DNA of 12,464 nt from Myxococcota bacterium. Its GTDB lineage: Bacteria; Myxococcota_C; UBA6777. Shown in pieces: positions 270-12,160 of this stretch (position 1 is the stretch's first letter; every line of letters begins with the position of its first letter). The notes under the pieces are model-generated. The model did not search any database. It was not told the DNA's origin and worked only from the letters and a program-made list of their open reading frames with translations. The position numbers were made by a program, and so were the translations under genes. The DNA lies in assembly GCA_023150835.1 (NCBI GenBank), contig JAKLKB010000165.1:1-12464 (forward strand). The letters run 5' to 3'.

Positions 270-1343
270 ATGCGCCGTTTTCCTCCGTTTTGCACACAGA
301 ACCACACGCAAAAGCCCTATCACAACGCCAAAAACGCTTGCTCTCTTCTCCGTTTCGACACGCATCCGCTCTGCGCCCTTCTCTTCTTGCTTTTCCTCCC
401 ATCCTGCACCTCCCCCGCCTCTCCTACTCTCGACGATCAACTCCGCCTCCACCACATCCAGATCAAAGGCACCCACAACAGCTACCACATCTCCCCCAAC
501 AACGGCGTCAAACCGTGGGACTACACCCACGCCCCGCTCACCGAACAACTCGACCAACAAGGCGTACGAAAGTTTGAACTCGACCTCTATTGGTCCCCCG
601 AACACAAACGCTTTGATGTCCTCCACGTCCCCGGATTCGACCCCCACAGCCGATGCCCGCTCTTCACAGACTGCCTCTCCGAGATCAACGCTTGGTCGAG
701 CAAACATCCCACCCACCTCCCTGTCTTTGTCTTCCTCGAAGCCAAAGAATCTTCTCCACCCGACGGATGGGATCTCTATTACCAACGCCTCGAAGCGGCC
801 ATCCTTTCGGTCTTTCCGCGCAAAGGACTCTTTACCCCTGACGATCTCCGCAAAGAACACCCCTCCCTCCAAGCCGCCCTCCAAAAAGACGGATGGCCAA
901 CCCTCCGAGAAGTCCGTGGCAAGGTTCTCTTCGTCCTGCTCGTCGGTGGCGAAAAGCGCGATGCCTACACCAAAAACGATCCTGCACAGCAAGACCGCCT
1001 GTGTTTTGTCACCGCTGAAACCAACGATCCTTTCGCTGCCATCGTCAAAATCGATTCCCCCCTCGGCAACGAACCCCAGATCCAAGCCGCCATCCGCGCC
1101 CACTTGATCGTGCGCACACGCGCTGACTCCCCCGAAGATGAACATGATCCCAAACGCCTCGCTGCCGCCCTCCAAAGCGGCGCACACATCATCAGCACCG
1201 ATGTCCCCGTCCCCCAAGCAGGCACCTCCTACGTTGTCACCCTCCCCAACGCAAACCCCGCTCGCTGTAACCCCATCCTCGCCCCTCCCGAATGTACCCC
1301 CCAAGCCCTCGAAGATCTCGCCTCCACACCATCCAAACCCTAA
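270..1343 (+). CDS. Ca2+-dependent PI-PLC-like phosphodiesterase lipoprotein
   Basis: Probable secreted phosphodiesterase of the Ca2+-dependent phosphoinositide phospholipase C family (PI-PLC-C1 type TIM barrel), 357 aa. The ATG at 270 has GGAG at 257-260, nine bases upstream; an in-frame ATG at 255 lacks this. The N-terminus has a long basic stretch, then a hydrophobic run (CALLFLLFLPSC, residues 35-46) ending in a lipobox, so Cys46 is probably lipidated and the enzyme membrane-anchored outside the cytoplasm. Family landmarks are GTHNSYH near residue 68 (His69, candidate general acid/base), FELDLYW near 102 (acidic metal ligands), LHVPG near 118 (second catalytic His) and, near the C-terminus, VRTRADSPEDE, ISTDVP and LPNANPARCNP. 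Bacterial members are largely uncharacterised and the lipid substrate cannot be read from the sequence. Codons are strongly C-rich. The next gene starts 14 bp downstream. Confidence 0.87.
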   Translation: MRRFPPFCTQNHTQKPYHNAKNACSLLRFDTHPLCALLFLLFLPSCTSPASPTLDDQLRLHHIQIKGTHNSYHISPNNGVKPWDYTHAPLTEQLDQQGVRKFELDLYWSPEHKRFDVLHVPGFDPHSRCPLFTDCLSEINAWSSKHPTHLPVFVFLEAKESSPPDGWDLYYQRLEAAILSVFPRKGLFTPDDLRKEHPSLQAALQKDGWPTLREVRGKVLFVLLVGGEKRDAYTKNDPAQQDRLCFVTAETNDPFAAIVKIDSPLGNEPQIQAAIRAHLIVRTRADSPEDEHDPKRLAAALQSGAHIISTDVPVPQAGTSYVVTLPNANPARCNPILAPPECTPQALEDLASTPSKP

Positions 1344-1357
1344 CCCAAGGTCACACC

Positions 1358-2836
1358 ATGCCTCTCTTCTTTCTTCTTTCTTGTCAGGTAGGACTTACAC
1401 AGTCGGATAGTTTTCGTGGGGTGTCACCCCACACCCCACAAGGGAGCACCGCTCCCTTGACCCCGTATTGGCGAAACGAGCACTGTTTTTCAAACCAGCA
1501 ACGCTCTCGCTTGAAACAGCGCGAACACGGCTTTTTTTGGCAACCACGCCACGTTGCGGCTTGTCTCTTTTTATTTCTCGGTGTTTTGATGCTGCCCTTC
1601 ACCGCAAATGCGCAATCCATCCCCTCCCTTCTGCTTTTTGTCGGAAACAGCTACACCTACGGCAACGATCCCCAAGCCCTCAACCAACAAACCATCGCCA
1701 TGCTCCGAGAGTTCCTTCCCCCACAAACCACCACCCACCAAGAACGCATCGCTTATGGCGGATATCTCTGGGAACAACACCTCGCTGACCTCCAAAACAC
1801 CCAAACCATCAAGCCTTTGCGCCAACTCCTCCTCGAAAGCCAAGATCCCCTTCATCGCTGGCAATGGGTCGTCTTCCAAGAACAAAGCCAGATCCCGGGC
1901 ATCCCCGAAACCGACCCCTACGCCCAACGCAGCACCGCCGCCATCCAACAACTCGCGGCCACCGTACATACACGCAACGCACGCTCCATCTTGCTCATGA
2001 CATGGGGGCGACGAGATGGCGACTCACAAAACAAGACCCTATTTCCCGACTTCAAAACCATGCAAGCACGCCTTCGCGATGGCTATCTTCGCTACCGCAC
2101 TCGCGCCTCTACCCCCCAATACACCGTCTACATCGCGCCCGCTGGCATCGCATGGGAACACCTTTACGACGATATCAAACGCAACGGCCAAGACCCTCTA
2201 CGCCCTGAAAGCCTCTGGTATCGGCTCTATGATGCCGATGGCAGCCACCCCTCCCTCCTTGGAACTTTCCTCGCTGCCGCCACCCTCACCGCCGCACTCA
2301 CGGGCCGCGATCCCCGCTCTCTCACCTACAACCCCTCCCCCAACATCCTCGAAGCCGAACGCAAACAACTCCTCCAAGCCGCTTACCAAGCCGTCTTCCA
2401 AAATACCCTACCCTTCCCCTTCCCTTGGGCCTCCGCCTCCGAACCCAACCAAGAACCCACACCCGAATCCCCCCATGAATCCGAACCCACACAAACAAAC
2501 ACCGAACCTGCTTCCCCCGATGCTTCGATCGAATCCACCACTTCCGAAACTCCCCATGAATCCGAACCCACACAAACAAACACCGAAACTCCCCATGAAT
2601 CCGCCTCTTCTGAATCCTCCATTGAATCACCTCTTGAGTCCGTTCACTCCGAGATCTCGACCGAATCATCCACTGAACAGCCCCCCCAAGACGCCCTTCC
2701 TTCCGATACGAACAGCACACCCAATGCCCAAGGCTGTTGCGCAGCCCATCCAACCGCTTCTCTCGATCTCCCGACCTTGCTCCTTTTGCTCTTCGGACTC
2801 ATCTTCTTTCTCCGCCGTTTTGCTTATGGCGTGTAG
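1358..2836 (+). CDS. Secreted SGNH/GDSL-type hydrolase with MYXO-CTERM-like tail
   Basis: Predicted exported hydrolase of the SGNH superfamily (DUF4886-like), 492 aa from ATG 1358 (AAGG eight bases upstream). The signal peptide is internal: a hydrophobic run near residues 67-82 ends in TANAQS, suggesting cleavage after Ala85. The catalytic domain starts with LLLFVGNSYT (Ser98 nucleophile, block I), followed by YGG near 133, VVFQEQSQ near 171, and DADGSHPS with Asp294/His297 as the rest of the triad. Residues ~360-458 form a Ser/Glu/Pro/Thr linker with duplicated segments. The C-terminus is GCC, a leucine-rich helix (~469-485) and RR, resembling MYXO-CTERM sorting signals. A dispersed repeat (1416-1541) supplies about 40 residues before the signal peptide, so the true start may be later, for example TTG 1511, which would give a normal-length signal peptide but has no clear ribosome site. 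Substrate unknown; esterase or carbohydrate deacetylase are possibilities. Confidence 0.8.
   Translation: MPLFFLLSCQVGLTQSDSFRGVSPHTPQGSTAPLTPYWRNEHCFSNQQRSRLKQREHGFFWQPRHVAACLFLFLGVLMLPFTANAQSIPSLLLFVGNSYTYGNDPQALNQQTIAMLREFLPPQTTTHQERIAYGGYLWEQHLADLQNTQTIKPLRQLLLESQDPLHRWQWVVFQEQSQIPGIPETDPYAQRSTAAIQQLAATVHTRNARSILLMTWGRRDGDSQNKTLFPDFKTMQARLRDGYLRYRTRASTPQYTVYIAPAGIAWEHLYDDIKRNGQDPLRPESLWYRLYDADGSHPSLLGTFLAAATLTAALTGRDPRSLTYNPSPNILEAERKQLLQAAYQAVFQNTLPFPFPWASASEPNQEPTPESPHESEPTQTNTEPASPDASIESTTSETPHESEPTQTNTETPHESASSESSIESPLESVHSEISTESSTEQPPQDALPSDTNSTPNAQGCCAAHPTASLDLPTLLLLLFGLIFFLRRFAYGV
1416..1541 (+). repeat. R2 dispersed repeat, copy A (inside the SGNH gene 5' end)
   Basis: This ~125-bp element is related to the reverse complements of 12035-12160 and 12204-12329. 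Shared landmarks are TTGACCCCGT, a TTTCAAAC/TTTCATAC block, GCTTGAA/GCTTGCAA and GCGAACACGG followed by a T-run. The motif TAGGACTTACACAGTCG (1389-1405) lies just upstream. The same motif with two changes occurs at 12188-12204, but there in the opposite orientation relative to the repeat body. The element is read through by the SGNH hydrolase frame ahead of its signal peptide. Confidence 0.8.
2471..2587 (+). repeat. In-frame duplicated segment in the hydrolase linker
   Basis: A 36-bp segment at 2471-2506 recurs at 2552-2587 and encodes PHESEPTQTNTE twice in the Ser/Glu/Pro/Thr-rich linker. A third, partial copy (gaaactccccatgaatccg) follows from 2585. The spacing keeps the frame, so copy-number change would lengthen or shorten the stalk between the hydrolase domain and the C-terminal sorting tail without disrupting either. 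Confidence 0.85.
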
Positions 2837-2842
2837 ATCTCT

Positions 2843-3042
2843 CGATAACCCCCAAGCATCCGCCGATTCGTGGATCTTACGATAACTCACGAGCATCCGC
2901 CGCTTCGTGGATCTTACGATAACTCACGAGCATCCGCCGCTTCGTGGACCTTACGATCATACGAAATCCGCCCATGGTGTGATCGACGGAGCTTCGTGTG
3001 TCTCACGAACATACGAAATCCGCCCATGGTGTGATCGACGGA
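2843..3042 (+). repeat. 37-bp tandem repeat array with variant units
   Basis: Three adjacent 37-bp units occupy 2843-2879, 2880-2916 and 2917-2953. They share CGATAAC, GCATCCGCCG and TTCGTGGA and differ at only a few bases. A fourth 37-bp stretch (2954-2990) keeps the CGAT start but has the alternative body CATACGAAATCCGCCCATGG. After a 15-bp insert that body recurs as another 37-bp unit (3006-3042). A further unit of the first type sits at about 3130-3166, beyond the hairpin repeat. The array begins six bases after the SGNH hydrolase stop codon. No unique spacers separate the units, so it is not CRISPR. Bases 3167-3217 hold only the leader and ribosome site of the next gene. Confidence 0.9.
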
Positions 3043-3132
3043 TGTAGGGGCAGCCCCCTGTGGCTGCCCAAGAACAGGGCGTATACAGCAACTCGTGGCA
3101 ACGTTTTGTGTACACGTCTCTCGAATATCGTA
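3010..3132 (+). repeat. R3 hairpin repeat, 123-bp copy
   Basis: This matches 6304-6426 with the same total length of 123 bp. Conserved parts are CATACGAAATCC at the start, a central hairpin (arms GGGCAGCC 3048-3055 and GGCTGCCC 3062-3069, loop ccctgt), the stretch CCAAGAACAGGGCGT, and the terminal CTCTCGAATATCGTA. The part between ~3080 and ~3115 is much less conserved. The first 33 bp of the copy coincide with the last 37-bp unit of the tandem array, so the two repeat families are nested. Confidence 0.88.
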
Positions 3133-3217
3133 CAACCCCCAAGCATCCGCCGTTTCGTGCATCACCGCCATCAAAACGTTCCGCACCAACCCCACCGCAT
3201 CGGAGAAAAGAACTGCC

Positions 3218-3871
3218 ATGTTCTTCTTTGCAAACAAAAAAACCAAACTCCCTGATCCAGCAAGCGCACTCCCGGGTAGAACCCAAGCGATCCCAACGTC
3301 CACTACCCACTTTGTTCTACAAACGCCGATCAAACCGCCGTTTCCGACACATCTACAACAAGCGCTCTTTGGAATGGGTTGCTTTTGGGGAGCCGAACGC
3401 AAGTTCTGGACGCAACAAGGCATCCACACCACCGCTGTCGGATACGCCGCAGGGATCACACCCAACCCCACTTACCACGAGGTCTGCTCTGGAATGACGG
3501 GACACAATGAAGTCGTCCTCGTTGTCTTTGATCCGCTCACGATCTCTTATCAAGCCCTGCTGCGGATCTTTTGGGAGTCTCACGATCCCACCCAAGGCAT
3601 GCGCCAAGGCAACGATACCGGCACACAATACCGTTCCGGGATCTACACCTCCGACAACACCCAACACCAACAAGCCCTCGCCACACGCGATGCCTTCCAA
3701 CCTCGTCTTCTCGCCGCTGGCTTCGGCACGATCACCACCGAGATCTTGCCTGCCCCCACCTTCTACTACGCCGAAGAATACCACCAACAATACCTCGCCA
3801 AAGTTCCCGATGGGTACTGTGGACTCGGTGGAACGGGGGTCTCCTGCCCTATTGGCCTTCTCCCTGCTTAA
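3218..3871 (+). CDS. msrA: Peptide-methionine (S)-S-oxide reductase MsrA
   Basis: MsrA reduces the S-epimer of methionine sulfoxide in proteins and free methionine, a cytoplasmic antioxidant repair step usually recycled by thioredoxin. The 217-aa product matches the long E. coli-like form (212 aa). The ATG at 3218 is preferred over the longer frame because [20 protein letters not shown] aligns with the E. coli N-terminus (F-x-K-K ... P-A-D-A-L-P-G-R); GGAG lies at 3202-3205. The catalytic motif [10 protein letters not shown] places the nucleophile at Cys55. [35 protein letters not shown] and [12 protein letters not shown] are family signatures. The resolving cysteines Cys201 and Cys210 lie in [13 protein letters not shown], so the full three-cysteine relay appears intact. 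Upstream is the repeat-filled region and downstream a 171-bp gap with no feature I can name. Confidence 0.97.
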
Positions 3872-4776: not shown

Positions 4777-5310
4777 ATGACCCAACCTTCTTCTCGGCCC
4801 CCAAAAACCGAAGTGCCGATGTCATCACCCCAAAACGCCGCCCCTTCCCCCCAAACCGAAGTGCCGATGTCATCATCCCGAAAGATCCGCGTGATCCATC
4901 ACCCTCACCACGCCCAAAAACGCCAAACCCACACCTTTTATCCCACCCTCTCTCCCCAAGAACCCGAAGACTCCCACCTTTCAACCGAAGAACGCCGTAT
5001 CCTCGAATCCTCCGACCTTCTCACTCGATTTCGGATCGCCACCGAGATGTTGCGTACGGGTCGATTCTTTCGATCTATCGAGGCTTTTGATTACATTCAA
5101 CAACAACACCCCGAGCAAGCCGCACACACACACGCCCAAATCGGTGCCGCTCACTTTTTCCTCCACCACTACGAAAAAGCCATCCACCACTACGAAAAAG
5201 CCCTTGAACTCGGTGCCAACCCAACCATGATGCACGCCAACATTCTCGAAGCCCGCAACGCACAACAACCCTACAACCATCACCCCTCCAATCAGAAAGA
5301 AATCGGGTAA
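4777..5310 (+). CDS. Small TPR-like protein
   Basis: A 177-aa soluble protein, probably a protein-interaction module. The ATG at 4777 has GGAG at 4761-4764; the frame is open further upstream but that part reads like an out-of-frame Arg/Pro/Ser shadow of the preceding gene. Residues 1-70 are low-complexity, with a 16-aa in-frame duplication carrying TEVPMSS twice (22-bp identical DNA at 4806-4827 and 4854-4875). Residues ~80-165 look like two TPR-type helical hairpins: ATEMLRTGRFFRSIEAFDYI, then AQIGAAHFFLHHYEKAIHHY running on into KALELGANP, with the usual Gly/Ala, Tyr and Ala positions. A second small duplication (5163-5181 and 5184-5202) repeats HHYEKA. There is no signal peptide. It ends 9 bp before the DUF1295 gene, so co-transcription is likely. 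Partner unknown. Confidence 0.75.
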   Translation: MTQPSSRPPKTEVPMSSPQNAAPSPQTEVPMSSSRKIRVIHHPHHAQKRQTHTFYPTLSPQEPEDSHLSTEERRILESSDLLTRFRIATEMLRTGRFFRSIEAFDYIQQQHPEQAAHTHAQIGAAHFFLHHYEKAIHHYEKALELGANPTMMHANILEARNAQQPYNHHPSNQKEIG

Positions 5311-5319
5311 GCAACAAAG

Positions 5320-6228
5320 ATGCAGAAAGAAGCTTCAACCACTTGGAGTGTATCATCATCACGCGGTTTGTGCTTGGCGGCCTATGTCGTCGCACTCGGA
5401 GCCGCGTGGTTGACGGTCTCCCTTGTCCCCACAGAAAGCAGCCTATGGAAAGCGATCTGGGCGGATGTTGTCGCAACATGCGTCATCTTTGCTTCGAGCC
5501 TCTGGACCCGAAATTCGAGTATGTACGACCCTTATTGGAGTGTGGCCCCTGTGCCGATCGCGCTTTACTGGTATCTTGTCCACACACCCGTAGCATCCGA
5601 TCGATGGCGTGCGTGGCTTGTGCTTGCGGGGGTCGCATTTTGGTCGGTACGTCTGACGCTCAACTGGCTGACCGGCTGGAAAGGGCTTGGGCACGAAGAT
5701 TGGCGTTATCGCCAGATCCGCGAACAGACGGGACCGTTGTGGTGGTTGGTGAGTTTTCTCGGAATCCACATGTTTCCGACCGTGGTCGTGCTTTTCGGTT
5801 GTCTGCCGATCTGGGCGGTGATGACAGCCCGAGGGCGAGCCTTGGGCTGGCTTGACGTTGCAGCGGCCTTGGTCACGATCAGCGCGGTGGTGATCGAGAT
5901 GATCGCGGACCTACAACTACGGCACTTTATGCGCGATCGCAAGCCCGAAGAGATGATGCGTCGGGGCCTTTGGGCCTATTCTCGCCATCCCAACTACTTT
6001 GGAGAGATCCTCTTTTGGTGCGGATTGTATCTATTTGGAGTCGCGGCCAATCCCGCGCTCGTGTGGATCGCTATCGGTCCCCTCTCGATGATCTTGCTCT
6101 TTCTCTTCATCTCGATCCCCTTGGTGGAGAAAAAGATTCTCAAAACCAGACCGCAGTATCGGCAACTTCAACAAGAGATCTCGATGCTTCTCCCCTTGCC
6201 ACCGAGATATCCTTCACCTCCTCGCTGA
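5320..6228 (+). CDS. DUF1295 / steroid 5-alpha-reductase-like membrane protein
   Basis: A 302-aa polytopic inner-membrane protein of the DUF1295 family, related to the C-terminal domain of steroid 5-alpha-reductases and to isoprenylcysteine methyltransferases. Family marks are SMYDPYWSVAPV (residues ~67-78), LTGWKGLGHEDWRYRQIREQ (~110-130), and RRGLWAYSRHPNYFGEILFW (~210-230), the last being the cofactor-site signature of this fold. About seven or eight hydrophobic segments are visible, and the C-terminus is cytoplasmic-looking with LVEKKILKTRPQYRQLQ. Most bacterial members have no proven substrate; NADPH-dependent reduction of a lipid is a family-level guess. The start is set by the first ATG, with only a weak ribosome site (GGTAA). 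Codon use is more G-rich than the five genes upstream. Its stop faces the ComA-like gene across a 198-bp convergent gap. Confidence 0.9.
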   Translation: MQKEASTTWSVSSSRGLCLAAYVVALGAAWLTVSLVPTESSLWKAIWADVVATCVIFASSLWTRNSSMYDPYWSVAPVPIALYWYLVHTPVASDRWRAWLVLAGVAFWSVRLTLNWLTGWKGLGHEDWRYRQIREQTGPLWWLVSFLGIHMFPTVVVLFGCLPIWAVMTARGRALGWLDVAAALVTISAVVIEMIADLQLRHFMRDRKPEEMMRRGLWAYSRHPNYFGEILFWCGLYLFGVAANPALVWIAIGPLSMILLFLFISIPLVEKKILKTRPQYRQLQQEISMLLPLPPRYPSPPR

Positions 6229-6303: not shown

Positions 6304-6426
6304 CATACGAAATCCACCCATAGTGTGAGCGACCTTTGTAGGGGCAGCCCCCTGTGGCTGCCCAAGAACAGGGCGTCTCCAACGGATCGCACCTACCCTT
6401 CAATCACACTTCTCTCGGATATCGTA
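6304..6426 (+). repeat. R3 hairpin repeat, 123-bp copy between convergent genes
   Basis: Same family and same length as 3010-3132: CATACGAAATCC at the start, central hairpin, CCAAGAACAGGGCGT, and CTCTCGGATATCGTA at the end. Its last base touches the stop codon of the ComA-like gene (6427-6429 on the opposite strand). Bases 6229-6303, between the DUF1295 stop and the repeat, show nothing I can name. Confidence 0.88.
6342..6363. terminator. Perfect 8-bp hairpin, possible bidirectional terminator
   Basis: Arms GGGCAGCC (6342-6349) and GGCTGCCC (6356-6363) are exact complements with the 6-base loop ccctgt. It sits between the convergent DUF1295 and ComA-like genes, where a terminator is expected. 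It lacks a following T-run on either strand, so intrinsic termination is uncertain; a protective mRNA 3' structure or a plain repeat is equally possible. Confidence 0.35.
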
Positions 6427-7374
6427 TCACTCGTTGGGCTTGCCGATGGACAGTTCCTTGAGCGCAAACCCTCGCTGCATATCTTGGTGATAATCAGGAG
6501 ACTCGATTTGCCACCAATGTTCGCACTGGCTCTTATCTTGAGACCACCGCATATAGGGGTGATCCATCTCAAAGATGATGCCGTGACGAACCCACTCCAC
6601 CCACTTCACGTCCGGCGGGTAGATATTCGCCAGATTCACGTTCGGAGTCAGTTCTTTCACAAGCCAAGAGATAATCGGCAAATTTCCTTGGTTGCGAGCG
6701 TCCCATACTTCAAAAACCATTTTATCCGAATTAACAGCCTTTACGACTTCAAGAAACTGCTTTTGTCCTTCGATATTTTCAAGCTGAGTGCCGATCAAGT
6801 TGCGCACCACCATCCCTTCCCAATAGATGTAATCCGCGCCCGCTTCCAACAACCCAAGGGCCAGTTCGGTGACTTTGTCCACATAGACTTGGTCTCGACC
6901 TTTCCGAGTCGGATCCTTCCATGCCCATTTTTTCCCTAGCTCGCCAACCACCGTAAAGCCCGCATCTTTGGCCATCTTGATCTCATCTTTGAACTCTTCA
7001 AGAGAAGCCCCGCTGGCATGGTTCTCCACTTCGATCTCGTTGATCCCGAGCTGATGAAGAAGATGCAGGTATTCTTTCAGTTTGCCTTGCGCCTTGGCCA
7101 CCTCAAACTGAGTCCCACCCAACGCCACGTCGATGTTCATGTCCCGATATTGAGCCACCGCCTTTTCCACGATACTCAAGTCGTTGTGCCAAAGCGTGTC
7201 CAACATCTTCACCCGATCCACCAACTCACTATAAGAGCGAATAAACTCGGGTCCTTGGTTCACAACGTCCATCACAAGCACCATCGTAATCCCCGTCTTA
7301 CGAGGCTTCCGTGTGCGCAAAGAATCCGCATCCAGTTTGTCTTGAAACAGTTTCAGCATCTCTGTTAAGTTCAT
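6427..7374 (-). CDS. Divergent ComA (phosphosulfolactate synthase) family protein
   Basis: A 315-aa (beta/alpha)8-barrel protein related to ComA, which adds sulfite to phosphoenolpyruvate to give phosphosulfolactate. Start: ATG 7374 overlaps the stop of the PrpF-like gene as ATGA (7371-7374), with AGGAAG nine bases upstream. Family landmarks are KPRKTGIT (24-30), GGTQFEVAKAQGKLKEYL (86-103), EIEVENHASGASLEEFKDEI, VVGELGKK (142-149), LEAGADYIYWEG (176-187) and PNVNLANI (244-251). Three positions usually conserved in canonical ComA differ: the FVKFGWGTS strand is RVKMLDTLW here, the EARESG loop is EGMVVRN, and FEAP..K.QQ is FEVWDARNQ. About 50 C-terminal residues rich in Trp, His and Asp extend past the normal end. 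I infer the barrel and perhaps the addition chemistry are kept but the acceptor is not phosphoenolpyruvate. Plant HSA32-like proteins show the family can also have non-sulfonate roles. Last gene of the four-gene operon. Confidence 0.88.
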   Translation of the reverse strand: MNLTEMLKLFQDKLDADSLRTRKPRKTGITMVLVMDVVNQGPEFIRSYSELVDRVKMLDTLWHNDLSIVEKAVAQYRDMNIDVALGGTQFEVAKAQGKLKEYLHLLHQLGINEIEVENHASGASLEEFKDEIKMAKDAGFTVVGELGKKWAWKDPTRKGRDQVYVDKVTELALGLLEAGADYIYWEGMVVRNLIGTQLENIEGQKQFLEVVKAVNSDKMVFEVWDARNQGNLPIISWLVKELTPNVNLANIYPPDVKWVEWVRHGIIFEMDHPYMRWSQDKSQCEHWWQIESPDYHQDMQRGFALKELSIGKPNE

Positions 7375-8492
7375 ACAAACACTCTTCCTTCCATGATCTT
7401 CCTCCAAGTCCGACCAAATGCCAGCCTCTGAAAACCGCCTTGGCCATCCGTTTGTACTTCGACTTCCATCACGCCAGAAGGGTGTCCGATCCTCCATCTC
7501 CCACCCTGTTGCTGTTGCGATGCTTGGTGAACAAGGGTGCCTTCAAGGCTTGCAGCCGCTGCAAGGCAAACAGCACCTGTTCCCGGAAATGTTTTGTGCG
7601 TACGCTTGAAGCCCACAAGCCTCGCCTGCATGTCGATATCGCCTGCGCTGAGCGAACGGTTTTCACCATACACCGAGCTTTCTTTCGGCCCAGAAACATA
7701 GCAAAGAAACGGAATGTACGGCGTCTTCGAAAATGCGTCCTCCGCTCGATCAACAAACCCCAGACGCACCGCCGCTGCGCCGCGAATCATCTCAAGCTTT
7801 TCGATCAGTCCCCGATCCCCGTCAACCGCAGACGGCGACTCAACGCCCGTAAGCCCCAGAGATTCGGCCCTGATAAACGCTACAGGGTTCGCCAGATCCA
7901 CGATGCTCATCTCGATCTCCCCGAGGCCGGGGACATCGACCGAATCGACTACGCGGCCTGTAGGTAAAAGTTTACCTGTCACGGAGCCCGCAGTTTCCGA
8001 GAAATCCAACATAATCTTCGCGCCAAAGCCGGGAACACCATCGATCGCGTAATCACCCACTGATTGCGGAATCCCCTCTTTGATAGGAACTTCTGCTGTG
8101 ATGATCTTACCGACGTTCGTATTGTGGATCCGAATCTTTAAGAGGCCCTCATCCTTTGCACGAACAAAACCTTCTTCGATCGCGATCGGTCCGACAGCAG
8201 CGGAGATATTGCCACAATTGCCTTCATAACTGACGGTATCTTTTTCTATGCCGACTTGCGCAAAAGTATAGTCGACATCTGCCCCCGGCACGCTCGGAGG
8301 GCCAAGGATCGCCACTTTGCTGGTGAGTATATCTGCCCCACCCAATCCATCGATCTGACGGGCATCCGGCGTACCCATGATCCGCTTGATCACCCGATCT
8401 CGCTCTGGCCCTTGCGGCGGCAAGTCTTGCGAAAAAACAAACACTCCTTTGCTCGTTCCCCCTCGAACGATCGCACAGCGAAAACTTTTCAC
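7371..8492 (-). CDS. PrpF-family isomerase of unsaturated carboxylates
   Basis: A 373-aa protein of the PrpF/DUF453 family (diaminopimelate-epimerase fold). Characterised members move or flip double bonds in aconitate-like acids: 2-methylaconitate cis-trans isomerase PrpF, oxalomesaconate tautomerase, methylitaconate isomerase. The start is GTG 8492, with AGGAG six bases upstream; an adjacent TTG at 8495 is too close to that site. Motifs: RGGTSKGVF (10-18), RQIDGLGGADILTSKVAI (45-62) and YEGNCGNISAAVGP (89-102). Lys59 and Cys93 are 34 residues apart, the spacing of the catalytic Lys73/Cys107 pair in Shewanella PrpF. The second lobe has THKTFPGTGAVC. Length is normal for the family. The gene follows the hydro-lyase through a 26-bp tandem repeat array and overlaps the ComA-like gene by 4 bp, so it probably acts on the hydro-lyase product before the ComA-like step. 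Confidence 0.93.
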   Translation of the reverse strand: MKSFRCAIVRGGTSKGVFVFSQDLPPQGPERDRVIKRIMGTPDARQIDGLGGADILTSKVAILGPPSVPGADVDYTFAQVGIEKDTVSYEGNCGNISAAVGPIAIEEGFVRAKDEGLLKIRIHNTNVGKIITAEVPIKEGIPQSVGDYAIDGVPGFGAKIMLDFSETAGSVTGKLLPTGRVVDSVDVPGLGEIEMSIVDLANPVAFIRAESLGLTGVESPSAVDGDRGLIEKLEMIRGAAAVRLGFVDRAEDAFSKTPYIPFLCYVSGPKESSVYGENRSLSAGDIDMQARLVGFKRTHKTFPGTGAVCLAAAASLEGTLVHQASQQQQGGRWRIGHPSGVMEVEVQTDGQGGFQRLAFGRTWRKIMEGRVFV

Positions 8493-8598
8493 CAAACTCT
8501 CCTTTCCAAAGACGCCATCAGTCCATCGCTTTCAAAGACGCCATCAGTCCACCGCTTTCAAAGACGCCATCAGTCCATCGCTTTCAAAGACGCCATCA
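8489..8598 (-). promoter_or_regulatory. Chain of overlapping mini-ORFs coupling hydro-lyase to isomerase
   Basis: On the minus strand the hydro-lyase stop (TGA 8598-8596) shares its A with an ATG at 8596, which opens an 8-codon ORF (MASLKAMD) ending at 8570. That stop again overlaps an ATG (TGATG), as does the next at 8544 and the next at 8518. The fourth ORF (MASLERRVW) ends at TGA 8491-8489, which overlaps the PrpF GTG start (8492-8490) as GTGA. Four mini-ORFs thus tile the gap without a free base, because the 26-bp repeat equals 27 nt of ORF minus one shared base. Termination-reinitiation is an inference; the tiling itself is seen. Confidence 0.75.
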
Positions 8599-8637
8599 GT
8601 CCACCGCTTTCAAAGACGCCATCAGTCCACCGCTTTC
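8508..8637. repeat. 26-bp tandem repeat, five units
   Basis: Five contiguous 26-bp units lie at 8508-8533, 8534-8559, 8560-8585, 8586-8611 and 8612-8637. On the + strand each contains AAAGACGCCATCAGTCCA and GCTTTC; the only variation is a T/C alternation after TCCA (units 1 and 3 have T, units 2, 4 and 5 have C). The array covers the last 14 codons and the stop of the hydro-lyase gene and ends 15 bases before the PrpF start. Near-identity of the units points to recent slippage or duplication. Confidence 0.97.
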
Positions 8638-10644
8638 AAATAGGCTTTTTTGAAAGGCATTGGAAGGCCGCGCCGCATACTCCTCACGGCGAGTATGGTT
8701 CACGATCCGCCCCAAAGAAACCTCGACAGAGATCTCATCGCCTTGCCGAATTTGGTAGGCGGCGTTGCCGATCTCAAAAACGGGCAAACCAATATTCAGA
8801 GCATTTCTAAAAAAGATTCGTGCAAAGCTGTGAGCGATCACCACCGAAAAACCCGCTTCTTTGATGCCCATTGGGGCGCTTTCTCGCGAAGAGCCACAAC
8901 CAAAGTTTTTACCCGCTACGCAGATATCCCCACTCAAACGGTATCGAGATTGTTTGAAATGACTGAGAAATTCTGCATTCTCAGTATCCAACAACGTATA
9001 CACTTTGTAGTCCTGTGGTGAAGTGATATTACAGAACCGAGCGGGCATGATCAGATCTGTATTGACATCATCTCCAAAGCACCAAGCCTTTTGAGCGGGT
9101 GTATCGGACACATCGGCGTCCATCTCACGGATCGCAGCCTGATAAAAGGCGCTCCCCAAGGCTTCCATCACACGTTTCGACTTTTGAAGAGAGGCGTCGA
9201 GCGACGCCCCTACGGCCTGCTCCGTCGCATAATAACACTCTTGGCCATAGCCCGAAGTCAAACGACCCGCCAGAGCCGAATACGCAGCCACCGACGGACT
9301 CGCAAGGATCACAGCCGAAAGCTTGTCTCCCGTACGACCATAGAAATTTCGATTGGAAGTAAAAATCGCCGTCTCTTTGGGTCCAACGACGCCCGATTTG
9401 ATCCCGATACAAGGGCCGCAACTGGAGGACTCGATATAACAACCCGCCTCCAGAAACGTCCCCACAAGCCCTTCTTTGATCGCCTGCCGAAAGACCTGTT
9501 GTGAGGCGGGGATGATGATCGCCCGCACCCCGGGAGCCACGCGATGGCCTTTGAAGATATCCGCCACCACGCGCAGATCTTCGATCCGACCGTTGGTACA
9601 GGACCCAATGAAGGCTTGGTGGATCGGGATATCGCCTTCCGCAGTCACACGATCCACGATGCCTTTGATGCGGTTCAAGCCCAGCGGATCAGAGGTCGAC
9701 TTGCGTTCTGGACGTAGCGCCTCTCTTAGCTGGTACACACCAAGCGCATTCTCTGGAAGATACGGTAGCGCGACCGTAGGCTCCATTTCTGATAAATCGA
9801 TATCGATTTGTGCAGAATAAACGCCCTCAGGATCTCCGTCCATGCCCTTCAATCCGCTTACAGTATCCAAATCAAACCGCACTTCGTCGGGGAAATTCGC
9901 TTTGACTTCTTTTAGATAATCCAACGTCACATCGTCGACAGGAAACAGTCCGAATTTCGCCCCTGCTTCGATCGCCATATTGCTTATCGAAAATCGCGCC
10001 GCCATATCCAGACCGAACACTCCCGAGCCTGTGAATTCGATCGACTGGTACGTCGCCCCATCCACACCTGTCAGGCCAATTAAATGTAAGACGACATCTT
10101 TTCCATAAACGCCTTTTCTTAGCGTCCCCGTCAGATTTACTCGAATCGATCGAGGAACCTGTAGCCAAACCTTGCCCGATATCATCGCCGAAGCTAAGTC
10201 CGTAGAACCAATCCCAGTACCCAAACAACCCAACGCACCGTAGGTACAAGAATGAGAGTCCGCCCCCACGCCGACCGTTCCCGGGTACAAAAATCCACGC
10301 TCTTCAAAGAGACGATGTTGGATGCCCCCGTCATAACCGACCTCAAAAACCCGAATGCCGTATTTTTTTGCAAACTCACGCAGTCCCACCATCAACGCGG
10401 CCGACTTTGCATCCGTCGCAGGGACAAGGTGATCGAACGGGAACATGATCTTCGAAGAATTGGCTTTTAAAACAGCGTCATAGGTTCCATCAAGAAACCC
10501 CTTTTCGCGCAAAACATCCACCGCAAACTGAAGGGTCATCTCGCTCCCCCACGCAAGATCCACAGGGAGCTCTACAATTTCACCGATCTCCACCGACCGA
10601 GCGAGCCGGTGTGAAAAAAGTTTCTGTGTCAGTGTTTCAGCCAT
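8596..10644 (-). CDS. Single-chain aconitase-family hydro-lyase (LeuC+LeuD type)
   Basis: A 682-aa [4Fe-4S] hydro-lyase that would dehydrate and rehydrate a 2-alkylmalate-like acid. Start ATG 10644 gives MAETLTQKLFSHRLARSVEI, matching the LeuC/homoaconitase N-terminus, 7 bp after the preceding stop. Large-subunit part: FDHLVP (70-75), GGIQHRLFEERG (106-117), GADSHSCTYGALG (127-139), cluster ligands Cys349 (GSCTNG) and Cys409/Cys412 (SSCGPCIG). Swivel, LeuD-like part from ~520: FGDDVNTDLIMPARF (523-537), GKNFGCGSSRESAP (578-591), ARIFFRNALNIGLPV. LeuC and LeuD are separate in E. coli; here they are fused in natural order, as in single-chain aconitases. After IMPAR the specificity loop reads FCNITSP, unlike the YLRT-type loops of homoaconitase small subunits that I recall. 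The last residues (MASLKAVD) are encoded by the tandem repeat. Aconitase, isopropylmalate dehydratase and homoaconitase are all open as labels. Confidence 0.93.
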   Translation of the reverse strand: MAETLTQKLFSHRLARSVEIGEIVELPVDLAWGSEMTLQFAVDVLREKGFLDGTYDAVLKANSSKIMFPFDHLVPATDAKSAALMVGLREFAKKYGIRVFEVGYDGGIQHRLFEERGFLYPGTVGVGADSHSCTYGALGCLGTGIGSTDLASAMISGKVWLQVPRSIRVNLTGTLRKGVYGKDVVLHLIGLTGVDGATYQSIEFTGSGVFGLDMAARFSISNMAIEAGAKFGLFPVDDVTLDYLKEVKANFPDEVRFDLDTVSGLKGMDGDPEGVYSAQIDIDLSEMEPTVALPYLPENALGVYQLREALRPERKSTSDPLGLNRIKGIVDRVTAEGDIPIHQAFIGSCTNGRIEDLRVVADIFKGHRVAPGVRAIIIPASQQVFRQAIKEGLVGTFLEAGCYIESSSCGPCIGIKSGVVGPKETAIFTSNRNFYGRTGDKLSAVILASPSVAAYSALAGRLTSGYGQECYYATEQAVGASLDASLQKSKRVMEALGSAFYQAAIREMDADVSDTPAQKAWCFGDDVNTDLIMPARFCNITSPQDYKVYTLLDTENAEFLSHFKQSRYRLSGDICVAGKNFGCGSSRESAPMGIKEAGFSVVIAHSFARIFFRNALNIGLPVFEIGNAAYQIRQGDEISVEVSLGRIVNHTRREEYAARPSNAFQKSLFESGGLMASLKAVD

Positions 10645-10651
10645 CGAATTC

Positions 10652-11902
10652 TCACAAAAGCTTTCTGATCTCTTCATCCGTTAGGACACGGTTAGAGGAC
10701 TTCGCGAACTGAAGGATGCGTTCCACGACTTCGTCCGCCGCACTCAATCCGCGCTTCTTGAACCAATACAAGACATTTGATTTTCCACTCACAGGGCCGA
10801 TCTCGATCACTTGTTCGAGTCCCAAAGCGTGGGCAGGCACAGCTGAGTACACATAATCGGCCAGCCACCGGTCTTCCACACAATCAAAAGACTTGATCAC
10901 CGCCGCAGCGTGTACGCCTGTGGACGTTCGAAACGCATCCTTCCCAACTGCCGGATAATGGGGCGGGATGTCGACACCACACACTTTCGAGACGAATTGG
11001 CAATACTCGCCTAACACACCCAAGTCCTTTTTGTACAGCCCCATCAAAAACAGATTCACGATGATCTGATCGATGGCTGCGTTTCCTGTGCGTTCGCCGA
11101 TCCCCAAACAGGTGCCGTGTATGCGATCAACGCCCGCATCGATCGCTGCAACCAGCGCATTGCAAAGCCCCAAGCCCCTGTCGTTGTGCCCGTGCCAATC
11201 GATCTTGATATCTTCTCCCGTCGCCGCAACCACCGCTTTGACGTAACTGACAAGGTTTATCACCCCGTCAGGCGTCGAATAGCCCACCGTGTCCGAGATA
11301 CAGATGCGGCGAGCCCCGCCTTCGATGGCTGTTGTGTACAACTTTTTGATCACTTCGGGTTCGGCTCGCGTGGTATCTTCGGTCACATACATCACTGGGA
11401 CATTGTTTTTCTGACAAAAATCCATGACTGTTTCGGTGGCTTTCAACAACTTTTCAAGATCCCATCCTTCTGCAAAACGGCGGATAGAACTCGACCCAAT
11501 AAACAGATGAGCCTCCACTTCTACACCTGTTTTTTGCATGATCTCGATGATCGGAACAACGTCGTTTGGTAGAGTACGCCCCGCACAAGCCAGATGGATA
11601 TGGAGCTTTTGACTGGCAACTTCTTGCGCAATTCTCGTACAGTCAGCCTGAACAGAAGCACCCGCCGCAGGCAACCCGATATCAGCGATGTGAACGCCCA
11701 GATCGTTCATGTAGTGCAAGATGCGCAACTTGTCTTCGATCGCGGGGTGTGTCACCGAAGTCGACTGCAACCCGTCCCGCAGCGTCTCATCATCCAACTC
11801 AATCCCGGGTGGGTGATGCAAGAAAAACCGTTGGGTCTTTGCCCCCTCGGCGTTCACTTCATTCCACGGATAAACAAGATCCTTCATCGACGGAGAGTTC
11901 AT
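10652..11902 (-). CDS. DRE-TIM acyl-CoA/2-oxoacid condensing enzyme (IPMS/homocitrate synthase type)
   Basis: A 416-aa metal-dependent aldolase-type synthase that would join an acyl-CoA (often acetyl-CoA) to a 2-oxoacid, giving a 2-hydroxy-2-alkyl dicarboxylate. Start: ATG 11902 with GGAAGG nine bases upstream. The longer open frame starts in non-conserved sequence, and ATG 11887 lacks a ribosome site. Catalytic and metal-site motifs: DETLRDGLQ (38-46, Asp38, Arg42, Asp43), IADIGLPAAG (72-81), EDTTRAEPE (175-183), SDTVGYSTPDG (203-213), WHGHND (236-241, His237/His239 as ligands) and GIGERTGN (267-274, Asn274). VGKDAFRTSTGVHAAAVIK resembles the post-barrel subdomain. The protein ends without the LeuA dimer domain that binds leucine, so leucine feedback is not expected. 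The particular 2-oxoacid cannot be read from motifs. First gene of the operon; stop is 7 bp before the hydro-lyase. Confidence 0.93.
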   Translation of the reverse strand: MNSPSMKDLVYPWNEVNAEGAKTQRFFLHHPPGIELDDETLRDGLQSTSVTHPAIEDKLRILHYMNDLGVHIADIGLPAAGASVQADCTRIAQEVASQKLHIHLACAGRTLPNDVVPIIEIMQKTGVEVEAHLFIGSSSIRRFAEGWDLEKLLKATETVMDFCQKNNVPVMYVTEDTTRAEPEVIKKLYTTAIEGGARRICISDTVGYSTPDGVINLVSYVKAVVAATGEDIKIDWHGHNDRGLGLCNALVAAIDAGVDRIHGTCLGIGERTGNAAIDQIIVNLFLMGLYKKDLGVLGEYCQFVSKVCGVDIPPHYPAVGKDAFRTSTGVHAAAVIKSFDCVEDRWLADYVYSAVPAHALGLEQVIEIGPVSGKSNVLYWFKKRGLSAADEVVERILQFAKSSNRVLTDEEIRKLL

Positions 11903-11970: not shown

Positions 11971-12000
11971 TTTGTAGCATTGGGGGAAGACAGGTGTCAA
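11971..12000 (-). promoter_or_regulatory. Sigma-70-like promoter of the four-gene operon
   Basis: On the minus strand a perfect -35 TTGACA (12000-11995) is followed after 18 bases by TACAAA (11976-11971), which is preceded by TGC, an extended -10 signature. Transcription would start near 11964, leaving about 60 nt of leader before ATG 11902. The leader contains no long hairpin I can see. The -35 box lies just outside the R2 repeats, so the promoter is not itself a repeat part. Confidence 0.6.
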
Positions 12001-12034: not shown

Positions 12035-12160
12035 GACAAAAAACCCCGTGTTCGCAGCACTTCAAGCGACAGAGCCGTCTGTATGAAACGCCTGTGCTCT
12101 CTTCGCCGGTACAGGGTCAAGGGAGCCGCGCCCTTAGCAGTGGGGTGTGGGATGACCCTC
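12035..12160 (-). repeat. R2 dispersed repeat, copy B
   Basis: Reverse-complement relative of 1416-1541. Read on + it runs ACAAAAAACCCCGTGTTCGC, TTCAAGCGA, TATGAAAC, GGGTCAAGGGAGC and TGGGGTGTGGGATGACC. It diverges from copies A and C at many positions but keeps the block order. It lies upstream of the operon promoter and carries short open frames in several phases that are only the repeat being read through. Confidence 0.75.

Follow-up and report, generated by a model that had tools for sequence, protein, structure and literature searches.

ComA, an enzyme of coenzyme M and sulfolactate synthesis, adds sulfite to phosphoenolpyruvate (PEP) through a metal-stabilised carboxylate, and to our knowledge this is the sole chemistry characterised in its family. 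Clusters of the pantaphos type combine a LeuA-like synthase with a LeuCD-type hydro-lyase to make an unsaturated, substituted dicarboxylate, and are fed by a PEP-derived C-heteroatom acid. In the 2-methylcitrate cycle, AcnD and PrpF pair an aconitase-superfamily protein with a PrpF-family protein, while in the nicotinate fermentation of Eubacterium barkeri the PrpF-family allylic isomerase Mii and the LeuCD-type hydro-lyase DmdAB act on alkyl-maleates. Mii turns methylitaconate into dimethylmaleate, and itaconate is also a substrate (PMC4720413). Conversion of citramalate to citraconate by LeuCD, as in the CimA route to isoleucine, is likewise established (PMC7100375). We analysed a stretch of 12,464 nucleotides (the window), which is the complete contig JAKLKB010000165.1 of a 7.56-Mb, 93%-complete genome of a Myxococcota bacterium; gene order is known within this contig only. 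It carries a minus-strand operon of four genes, which look like a complete, undescribed small pathway. We propose, with a probability of about one in three, that this pathway forms a methylenesuccinate, in the simplest case itaconate, and uses it up. The features of the operon are as follows.

10652..11902, minus strand: DRE-TIM (LeuA-like) condensing enzyme of the GLQ / FRTxTGVH clade, 416 aa (Pfam HMGL-like, 147 bits)
8596..10644, minus strand: fused LeuC-LeuD-type hydro-lyase, 682 aa, with GSCTNG and SCGPC (Pfam Aconitase, 352.5 bits, and Aconitase_C, 63 bits)
8502..8640, minus strand: 26-bp tandem repeat, 5.3 copies, across the hydro-lyase stop and the gap to the PrpF gene, with TGATG-linked 8-codon mini-ORFs
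7371..8492, minus strand: PrpF-family isomerase closest to Mii, 373 aa, with TSK and GNCGN (Pfam PrpF, 382 bits)
6427..7374, minus strand: ComA-like TIM-barrel protein with changed PEP-site motifs and a C-terminal extension, 315 aa (Pfam ComA, 124 bits)

All four families, which a preliminary description of this DNA had named, were recognised by Pfam far over the cut-off (HMGL-like, Aconitase plus Aconitase_C, PrpF, and ComA). The synthase gene extends from an ATG at 11902 to a stop at 10652, an alternative in-frame ATG upstream at 11980 being possible, and the hydro-lyase ATG (10644) lies 7 nt past the synthase stop. The PrpF gene starts with a GTG at 8492 that is immediately preceded by AGGAG, and its stop is overlapped by the ATG of the ComA-like gene (7374) as ATGA. 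The genes had been described as tightly coupled, which holds for the 7-nt spacing and the ATGA overlap but not for the hydro-lyase and PrpF genes, which are separated by a gap of 103 nt filled by the tandem repeat.

The four genes belong together, and their clustering is beyond chance, because an orthologous set clusters in another phylum and in another order. This was found by a pattern-based search through about 85,000 genomes, which was built on an alignment of the ComA-like protein and which divergent members will have escaped. The scan yielded four loci of the ComA-like subfamily, one of which (L010; JACPKR010000028.1, a Deltaproteobacteria metagenome-assembled genome from groundwater) holds the full four-gene set, as had been predicted. 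In L010 one strand carries the PrpF gene (125-1264), the hydro-lyase gene (1252-3327) and then the synthase gene, with the ComA-like gene (4833-5756) divergently oriented on the opposite strand. The synthase, hydro-lyase and PrpF proteins are 55%, 56% and 55% identical to those of the window, and the ComA-like protein, the best conserved of the four, is 74% identical. The same gene content in a changed order suggests an association that has been maintained, as opposed to a segment simply frozen in place. The remaining three loci are from archaea, and of the four genes they have the ComA-like one only. The subfamily was absent from 386 diverse bacterial genomes, the window's own excepted, and no further member was found among the genomes searched from the phylum of L010 (58) or from that of the archaeal homologue (392); nothing was found in the viral contigs searched. 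The four-gene set is very rare, being present in the window and in L010.

In the proposed pathway, the LeuA-like synthase would join acetyl-CoA to pyruvate, or to a different 2-oxoacid that is small and non-polar, giving citramalate (a 2-alkylmalate), which the fused hydro-lyase would dehydrate to citraconate (a 2-alkylmaleate). The Mii-like PrpF protein would then shift the double bond outwards to yield itaconate. In the last and least certain step, the ComA-like enzyme would add a nucleophile to the terminal CH2. Sulfite, which ComA adds to PEP, is for that reason the first candidate, and would give 2-(sulfomethyl)succinate. Itaconate, CH2=C(COO-)-CH2-COO-, can be regarded as an isostere of PEP, CH2=C(COO-)-O-PO3, with CH2-COO- in place of O-PO3. 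A ComA with its phosphate site exchanged for a carboxylate site would be a natural final enzyme of a citramalate-citraconate-itaconate route, and we propose that the TIM-barrel scaffold has been kept and the presumed phosphate-holding motifs replaced because itaconate shares the skeleton of PEP. The fully specified version, in which an itaconate-type acid arises from pyruvate and acetyl-CoA without an aconitate decarboxylase and a neofunctionalised ComA adds sulfite to give an undescribed polycarboxylate sulfonate, is in our opinion rather unlikely. No matching pathway, gene combination or sulfomethylsuccinate was found in the open-access literature that was searched, most subscription journals being outside it.

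The two middle enzymes resemble Mii and DmdAB. The isomerase is 46.6% identical to 3-methylitaconate delta-isomerase Mii (3G7K), versus 38.6% to the AcnD-type PrpF, and scored 349.7 bits with Mii, versus 254 bits or less with PrpF or oxalomesaconate isomerases. It keeps the lysine of TSK and the cysteine of GNCGN, and it missed the cut-off of the PrpF equivalog (287 bits, cut-off 440). Since Mii is the closer of the two, we would expect an allylic shift in an alkyl-maleate rather than the flip of methylaconitate. The preliminary description had the PrpF protein either move or flip a double bond; the identities favour the move and argue against the flip as a partner of AcnD. The hydro-lyase, with both domains and the Fe-S cysteine motifs in place, has the sequence hallmarks of a LeuCD member. 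It scored over the subfamily cut-offs of hacA_fam and IPMI_arch for the large part and of LeuD/DmdB for the small part. Its closest solved relatives were the isopropylmalate/citramalate isomerases (294 bits for the large and 127 bits for the small subunit), with the homoaconitase large subunit a near tie (290 bits) and aconitase and the homoaconitase small subunit lower. The AcnD equivalog was missed by a wide interval (106 bits, cut-off 1420). The operon thus has in common with AcnD-PrpF the juxtaposition of an aconitase-superfamily gene and a PrpF-family gene, but its hydro-lyase is of the LeuCD type and its PrpF protein is closer to Mii. Compared with the Eubacterium system, it has no nicotinate-pathway mutase or lyase and adds a condensing and a ComA-like enzyme, hence the synthetic direction that we propose. 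A LeuC-type, LeuD-type and PrpF trio without a synthase, reminiscent of DmdAB-Mii, was also observed on a Yersinia ruckeri plasmid (L032, 4679-7137).

The condensing enzyme and the hydro-lyase look like the front half of a pathway for elongating 2-oxoacids, as had been claimed. The synthase belongs to a clade of its own. When the sequences from the window, L010 and Streptomyces KN37 were used as queries, strong matches were obtained in 28 of 386 diverse genomes, one of them that of the window. In a tree made with a subset of the sequences, the clade was monophyletic (100/100) on a long branch, and the window and L010 proteins were sisters (95/99). The RDGEQ motif reads RDG[LIQ]Q at all 28 further clade loci, and the usual H-x-x-G-I/V/M-H reads FRTxTGVH in all of the 26 that reach that far. 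Within about 7 kb of these 28 loci, we found an isopropylmalate-dehydrogenase-like gene in 8, a LeuCD-type gene in 7, and a PrpF or ComA-like gene in none. Because dehydrogenase or LeuCD genes often adjoin its relatives, and PrpF or ComA-like genes none of these 28, the system of the window and L010 looks like an offshoot of 2-oxoacid elongation in which an isomerase and a ComA-like enzyme have taken the place of the dehydrogenase. Other neighbours of clade members, judged by eye, were crotonase, 3-hydroxyacyl-CoA dehydrogenase or acyl-CoA dehydrogenase genes. The members at loci L061 to L088 are about 50% identical to the window synthase, and the one in L061 adjoins a gene for 6-oxocyclohex-1-ene-1-carbonyl-CoA hydratase. 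On a plasmid of Streptomyces sp. KN37 (L007, 13962-18230), a same-clade synthase (41%) and an isocitrate/isopropylmalate-type dehydrogenase are found in an NRPS/PKS cluster that also contains two crotonyl-CoA carboxylase/reductases; the domain order of the hydro-lyase at this locus is seemingly reversed.

The synthase scored under every NCBIfam equivalog cut-off for isopropylmalate synthase, homocitrate synthase and CimA (119 bits for CimA, cut-off 450), and its best NCBIfam score, a weak one, was that for homocitrate synthase. In the alignment, however, the positions of R133 and H72 of the Thermus homocitrate synthase, which we take to bind the side chain of 2-oxoglutarate, are M and L/A in the operon enzyme. 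Homocitrate synthase was rejected on this basis. These non-polar residues favour a small non-polar 2-oxoacid as the predicted acceptor, and of the tri- or dicarboxylate products suggested earlier they argue for the dicarboxylate and against the tricarboxylate. The synthase might instead take oxaloacetate or 2-oxoglutarate, so that citrate or homocitrate would be dehydrated, isomerised in the manner of cis- and trans-aconitate, and handed to the ComA-like protein. The weak homocitrate synthase score would agree with this, Ustilago has an aconitate delta-isomerase, Adi1, that belongs to the PrpF proteins and is related to Mii (PMC4720413), and Re-citrate synthases are LeuA-like (PMC12016533). 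We nevertheless consider it unlikely, since the two side-chain residues are not conserved, the window genome encodes a full aconitase elsewhere, and the hydro-lyase is closer to isopropylmalate/citramalate isomerase than to aconitase. Furthermore, a Si-citrate synthase is present in 27 of the 29 hosts of the synthase clade (the match in the window genome being weak and partial), and the two hosts without it are incomplete genomes. The clade is therefore not a general substitute for citrate synthase. Re-citrate synthase, which had been raised as a candidate by those two hosts, where LeuCD genes adjoin the synthase gene, is disfavoured for the same reason.

We also considered whether the operon could serve leucine synthesis, or isoleucine synthesis via citramalate. 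Its synthase and hydro-lyase are the only LeuA/LeuC-type genes in the window genome, where the one other HMGL-like protein is a carboxylase subunit by NCBIfam and the one other aconitase-family protein is a full mitochondrial-type aconitase. The L010 genome has just one further HMGL-like frame, of 1160 aa, a length fitting pyruvate carboxylase (judged by frame length alone), and no other LeuA-like synthase was found in either host. Each host has a single Iso_dh protein. In the L010 genome this is an NADP isocitrate dehydrogenase; the window genome encodes a divergent one of 579 aa, under every curated cut-off, which is most likely also an isocitrate dehydrogenase because a divergent citrate synthase is encoded on the same contig. 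No 3-isopropylmalate-type dehydrogenase was found in either host genome (93% complete in the case of the window), and IlvD (PF00920), present in 14/14 control genomes, was absent from both. Thus, the dehydrogenase whose absence from the operon had been taken as evidence against leucine synthesis is lacking genome-wide in both hosts, and leucine and isoleucine synthesis were ruled out because neither host has a LeuB-type dehydrogenase or IlvD. The operon shares with the CimA route a condensing enzyme and a hydro-lyase closest, among solved structures, to isopropylmalate/citramalate isomerase, but it differs in its hosts, which lack LeuB and IlvD, and in the low CimA score of its synthase. A leucine-type elongation that does without the dehydrogenase, the genes being the leuA and leuCD of the host and the PrpF and ComA-like genes unrelated passengers, would account for the lack of other LeuA/LeuC-type genes and for the isopropylmalate-dehydrogenase-like and LeuCD neighbours in the wider clade. 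It is highly improbable, as it leaves the absence of isopropylmalate dehydrogenase and IlvD unaccounted for, and as the four genes have been kept together in two phyla with the supposed passenger, the ComA-like gene, the best conserved.

The ComA-like protein scored 123.6 bits with Pfam ComA (cut-off 25.2) and missed the ComA equivalog TIGR03849 (102.1 bits, cut-off 280). The best fold match of its AlphaFold model, which is of low confidence (mean pLDDT 57), was 1QWG (E 5.6e-13). In an alignment with canonical ComA it keeps K43, E133, K137, E168, E205 and VNxxNI (1QWG numbering). It lacks G.GTS, E[GA]RE[ST]G and FEAP.K.QQ, which are conserved in every canonical ComA compared; the subfamily members seen have LDT, EGMVVRNLIG and FE[VIM]W instead. 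A C-terminal extension, MDHPYMRW...WWxxExPxY, has been added and is conserved across the bacterial and archaeal members, and the signature of the subfamily is YWEGMVVRNLIG. The protein therefore resembles ComA in its Pfam family, fold, and scaffold lysines and glutamates, but differs from it in the missing GTS, GRESG and APxKxQQ, the extra segment, the low equivalog score and the lack of ComB, ComC, ComD or ComE neighbours. Because of the loss of these motifs it is probably not a phosphosulfolactate synthase, and a plain enzyme of this type was rejected.

The preliminary description had this protein add sulfite, or another nucleophile, to an unsaturated acid. With three canonical motifs missing, addition to PEP is unlikely, and sulfite itself was a guess to which nothing in the sequence points. 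After the same front half, the ComA-like enzyme could join the methylenesuccinate to water or ammonia, or to a thiol or carbon nucleophile, or could carry out another reaction on it, to give a non-sulfonated, substituted dicarboxylate. The replacement of the PEP-site motifs and their flanking segments, together with the new aromatic and charged extension conserved from bacteria to archaea, indicates that both substrates may have changed, and no sulfonate gene adjoins the operon in the window or in L010. On the other hand, the retained scaffold residues argue for a related mechanism, and no characterised chemistry of the family other than sulfite addition is known to us. We regard such an outcome as possible, though still doubtful. 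If, conversely, the ComA-like enzyme acted first and made a sulfonated C3 acid out of PEP and sulfite, the synthase could combine sulfopyruvate derived from that acid with acetyl-CoA, and the hydro-lyase and the isomerase could lead on to an unsaturated sulfonated dicarboxylate, a sulfonate analogue of pantaphos or FR-900098. The Pantoea cluster does group a PEP mutase, a LeuA-like synthase and a LeuCD-type hydro-lyase, but the operon has a ComA-like gene in place of PEP mutase, and a PrpF gene in addition. The ComA-like protein lacks the motifs of canonical PEP-using ComA, and no ComB- or ComC-like gene for the phosphatase and dehydrogenase steps is found in the window. Moreover, in the tree the synthase was placed apart from the phosphonomethylmalate-type synthases, and since it sits in a different clade we rejected this analogue as quite improbable.

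Several points weigh against the itaconate pathway. The sequence itself shows the arrangement and coupling of the genes, their families, the motifs kept or lost, and the preservation of the set in a second phylum. Its reaction order, pyruvate acceptor, itaconate intermediate, final addition of a nucleophile and choice of sulfite are all predictions from sequence, and we infer pyruvate from pocket positions and partner enzymes only. Two otherwise nearly invariant motifs set the synthase clade apart from every characterised relative (RDGEQ to RDGLQ, and HxxGxH to TxxGVH), so that its chemistry may also be different. The roles of individual ComA residues are presumed, the AlphaFold model (pLDDT 57) is too poor for pocket analysis, no sequence feature identifies sulfite as the nucleophile, and the second copy of the set comes from one metagenome-assembled genome only. 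Taken as a whole, the earlier interpretation was partly supported: the families, the front half, the missing dehydrogenase, the case against leucine and the recurrence stood, and an AcnD-like flip by PrpF, a tricarboxylate and the use of sulfite are either disfavoured or a guess. If the proposed pathway is correct, it would let bacteria reach itaconate or a near relative without the decarboxylation of cis- or trans-aconitate, and would add a second activity to the ComA family. A further outcome is the recognition of a widespread LeuA-like clade (28/386 diverse genomes) whose catalytic motifs are altered. Since the four-gene set is complete, small and compact, it could realistically be reconstituted from four purified proteins.

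The haloarchaeal ComA-like homologue adjoins CoA-transferase, HMG-CoA-lyase-like and adenylosuccinate-lyase-family genes, neighbours that are compatible with a branched dicarboxylate. In Natrinema zhouii (L008, 12010-12827) and Natrialba asiatica (L013, 10025-10816), the ComA-like gene is apparently frameshifted at the same place, and the locus also holds UGSC-family and DUF6282 genes beside the three just mentioned.

The 26-bp tandem repeat is a duplication of the 3'-terminal part of the hydro-lyase gene. Its unit length is not divisible by 3, so that every copy closes the frame and opens a new 8-codon mini-ORF via TGATG. The encoded peptides are MASLKAVD or MASLKAMD, and the last mini-ORF (MASLERRVW) terminates in TGGTGA on the start codon of the PrpF gene. 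This chain of overlaps could act as a ribosome relay, and changes in copy number could alter the C-terminus of the hydro-lyase. Other repeats were seen in the window. An inverted repeat of 133 nt (95% complementary) is present at both contig ends (1-133 and 12317-12449) and probably explains why the assembly stopped there; a shorter, related pair is found at 1446-1483 and 12094-12131. A 123-nt intergenic repeat pair (80% identity) occupies 3010-3132 and 6304-6426, the second copy being directly 3' of the ComA-like gene, and further dispersed or tandem intergenic repeats lie at 2836-3042 and 122-168.

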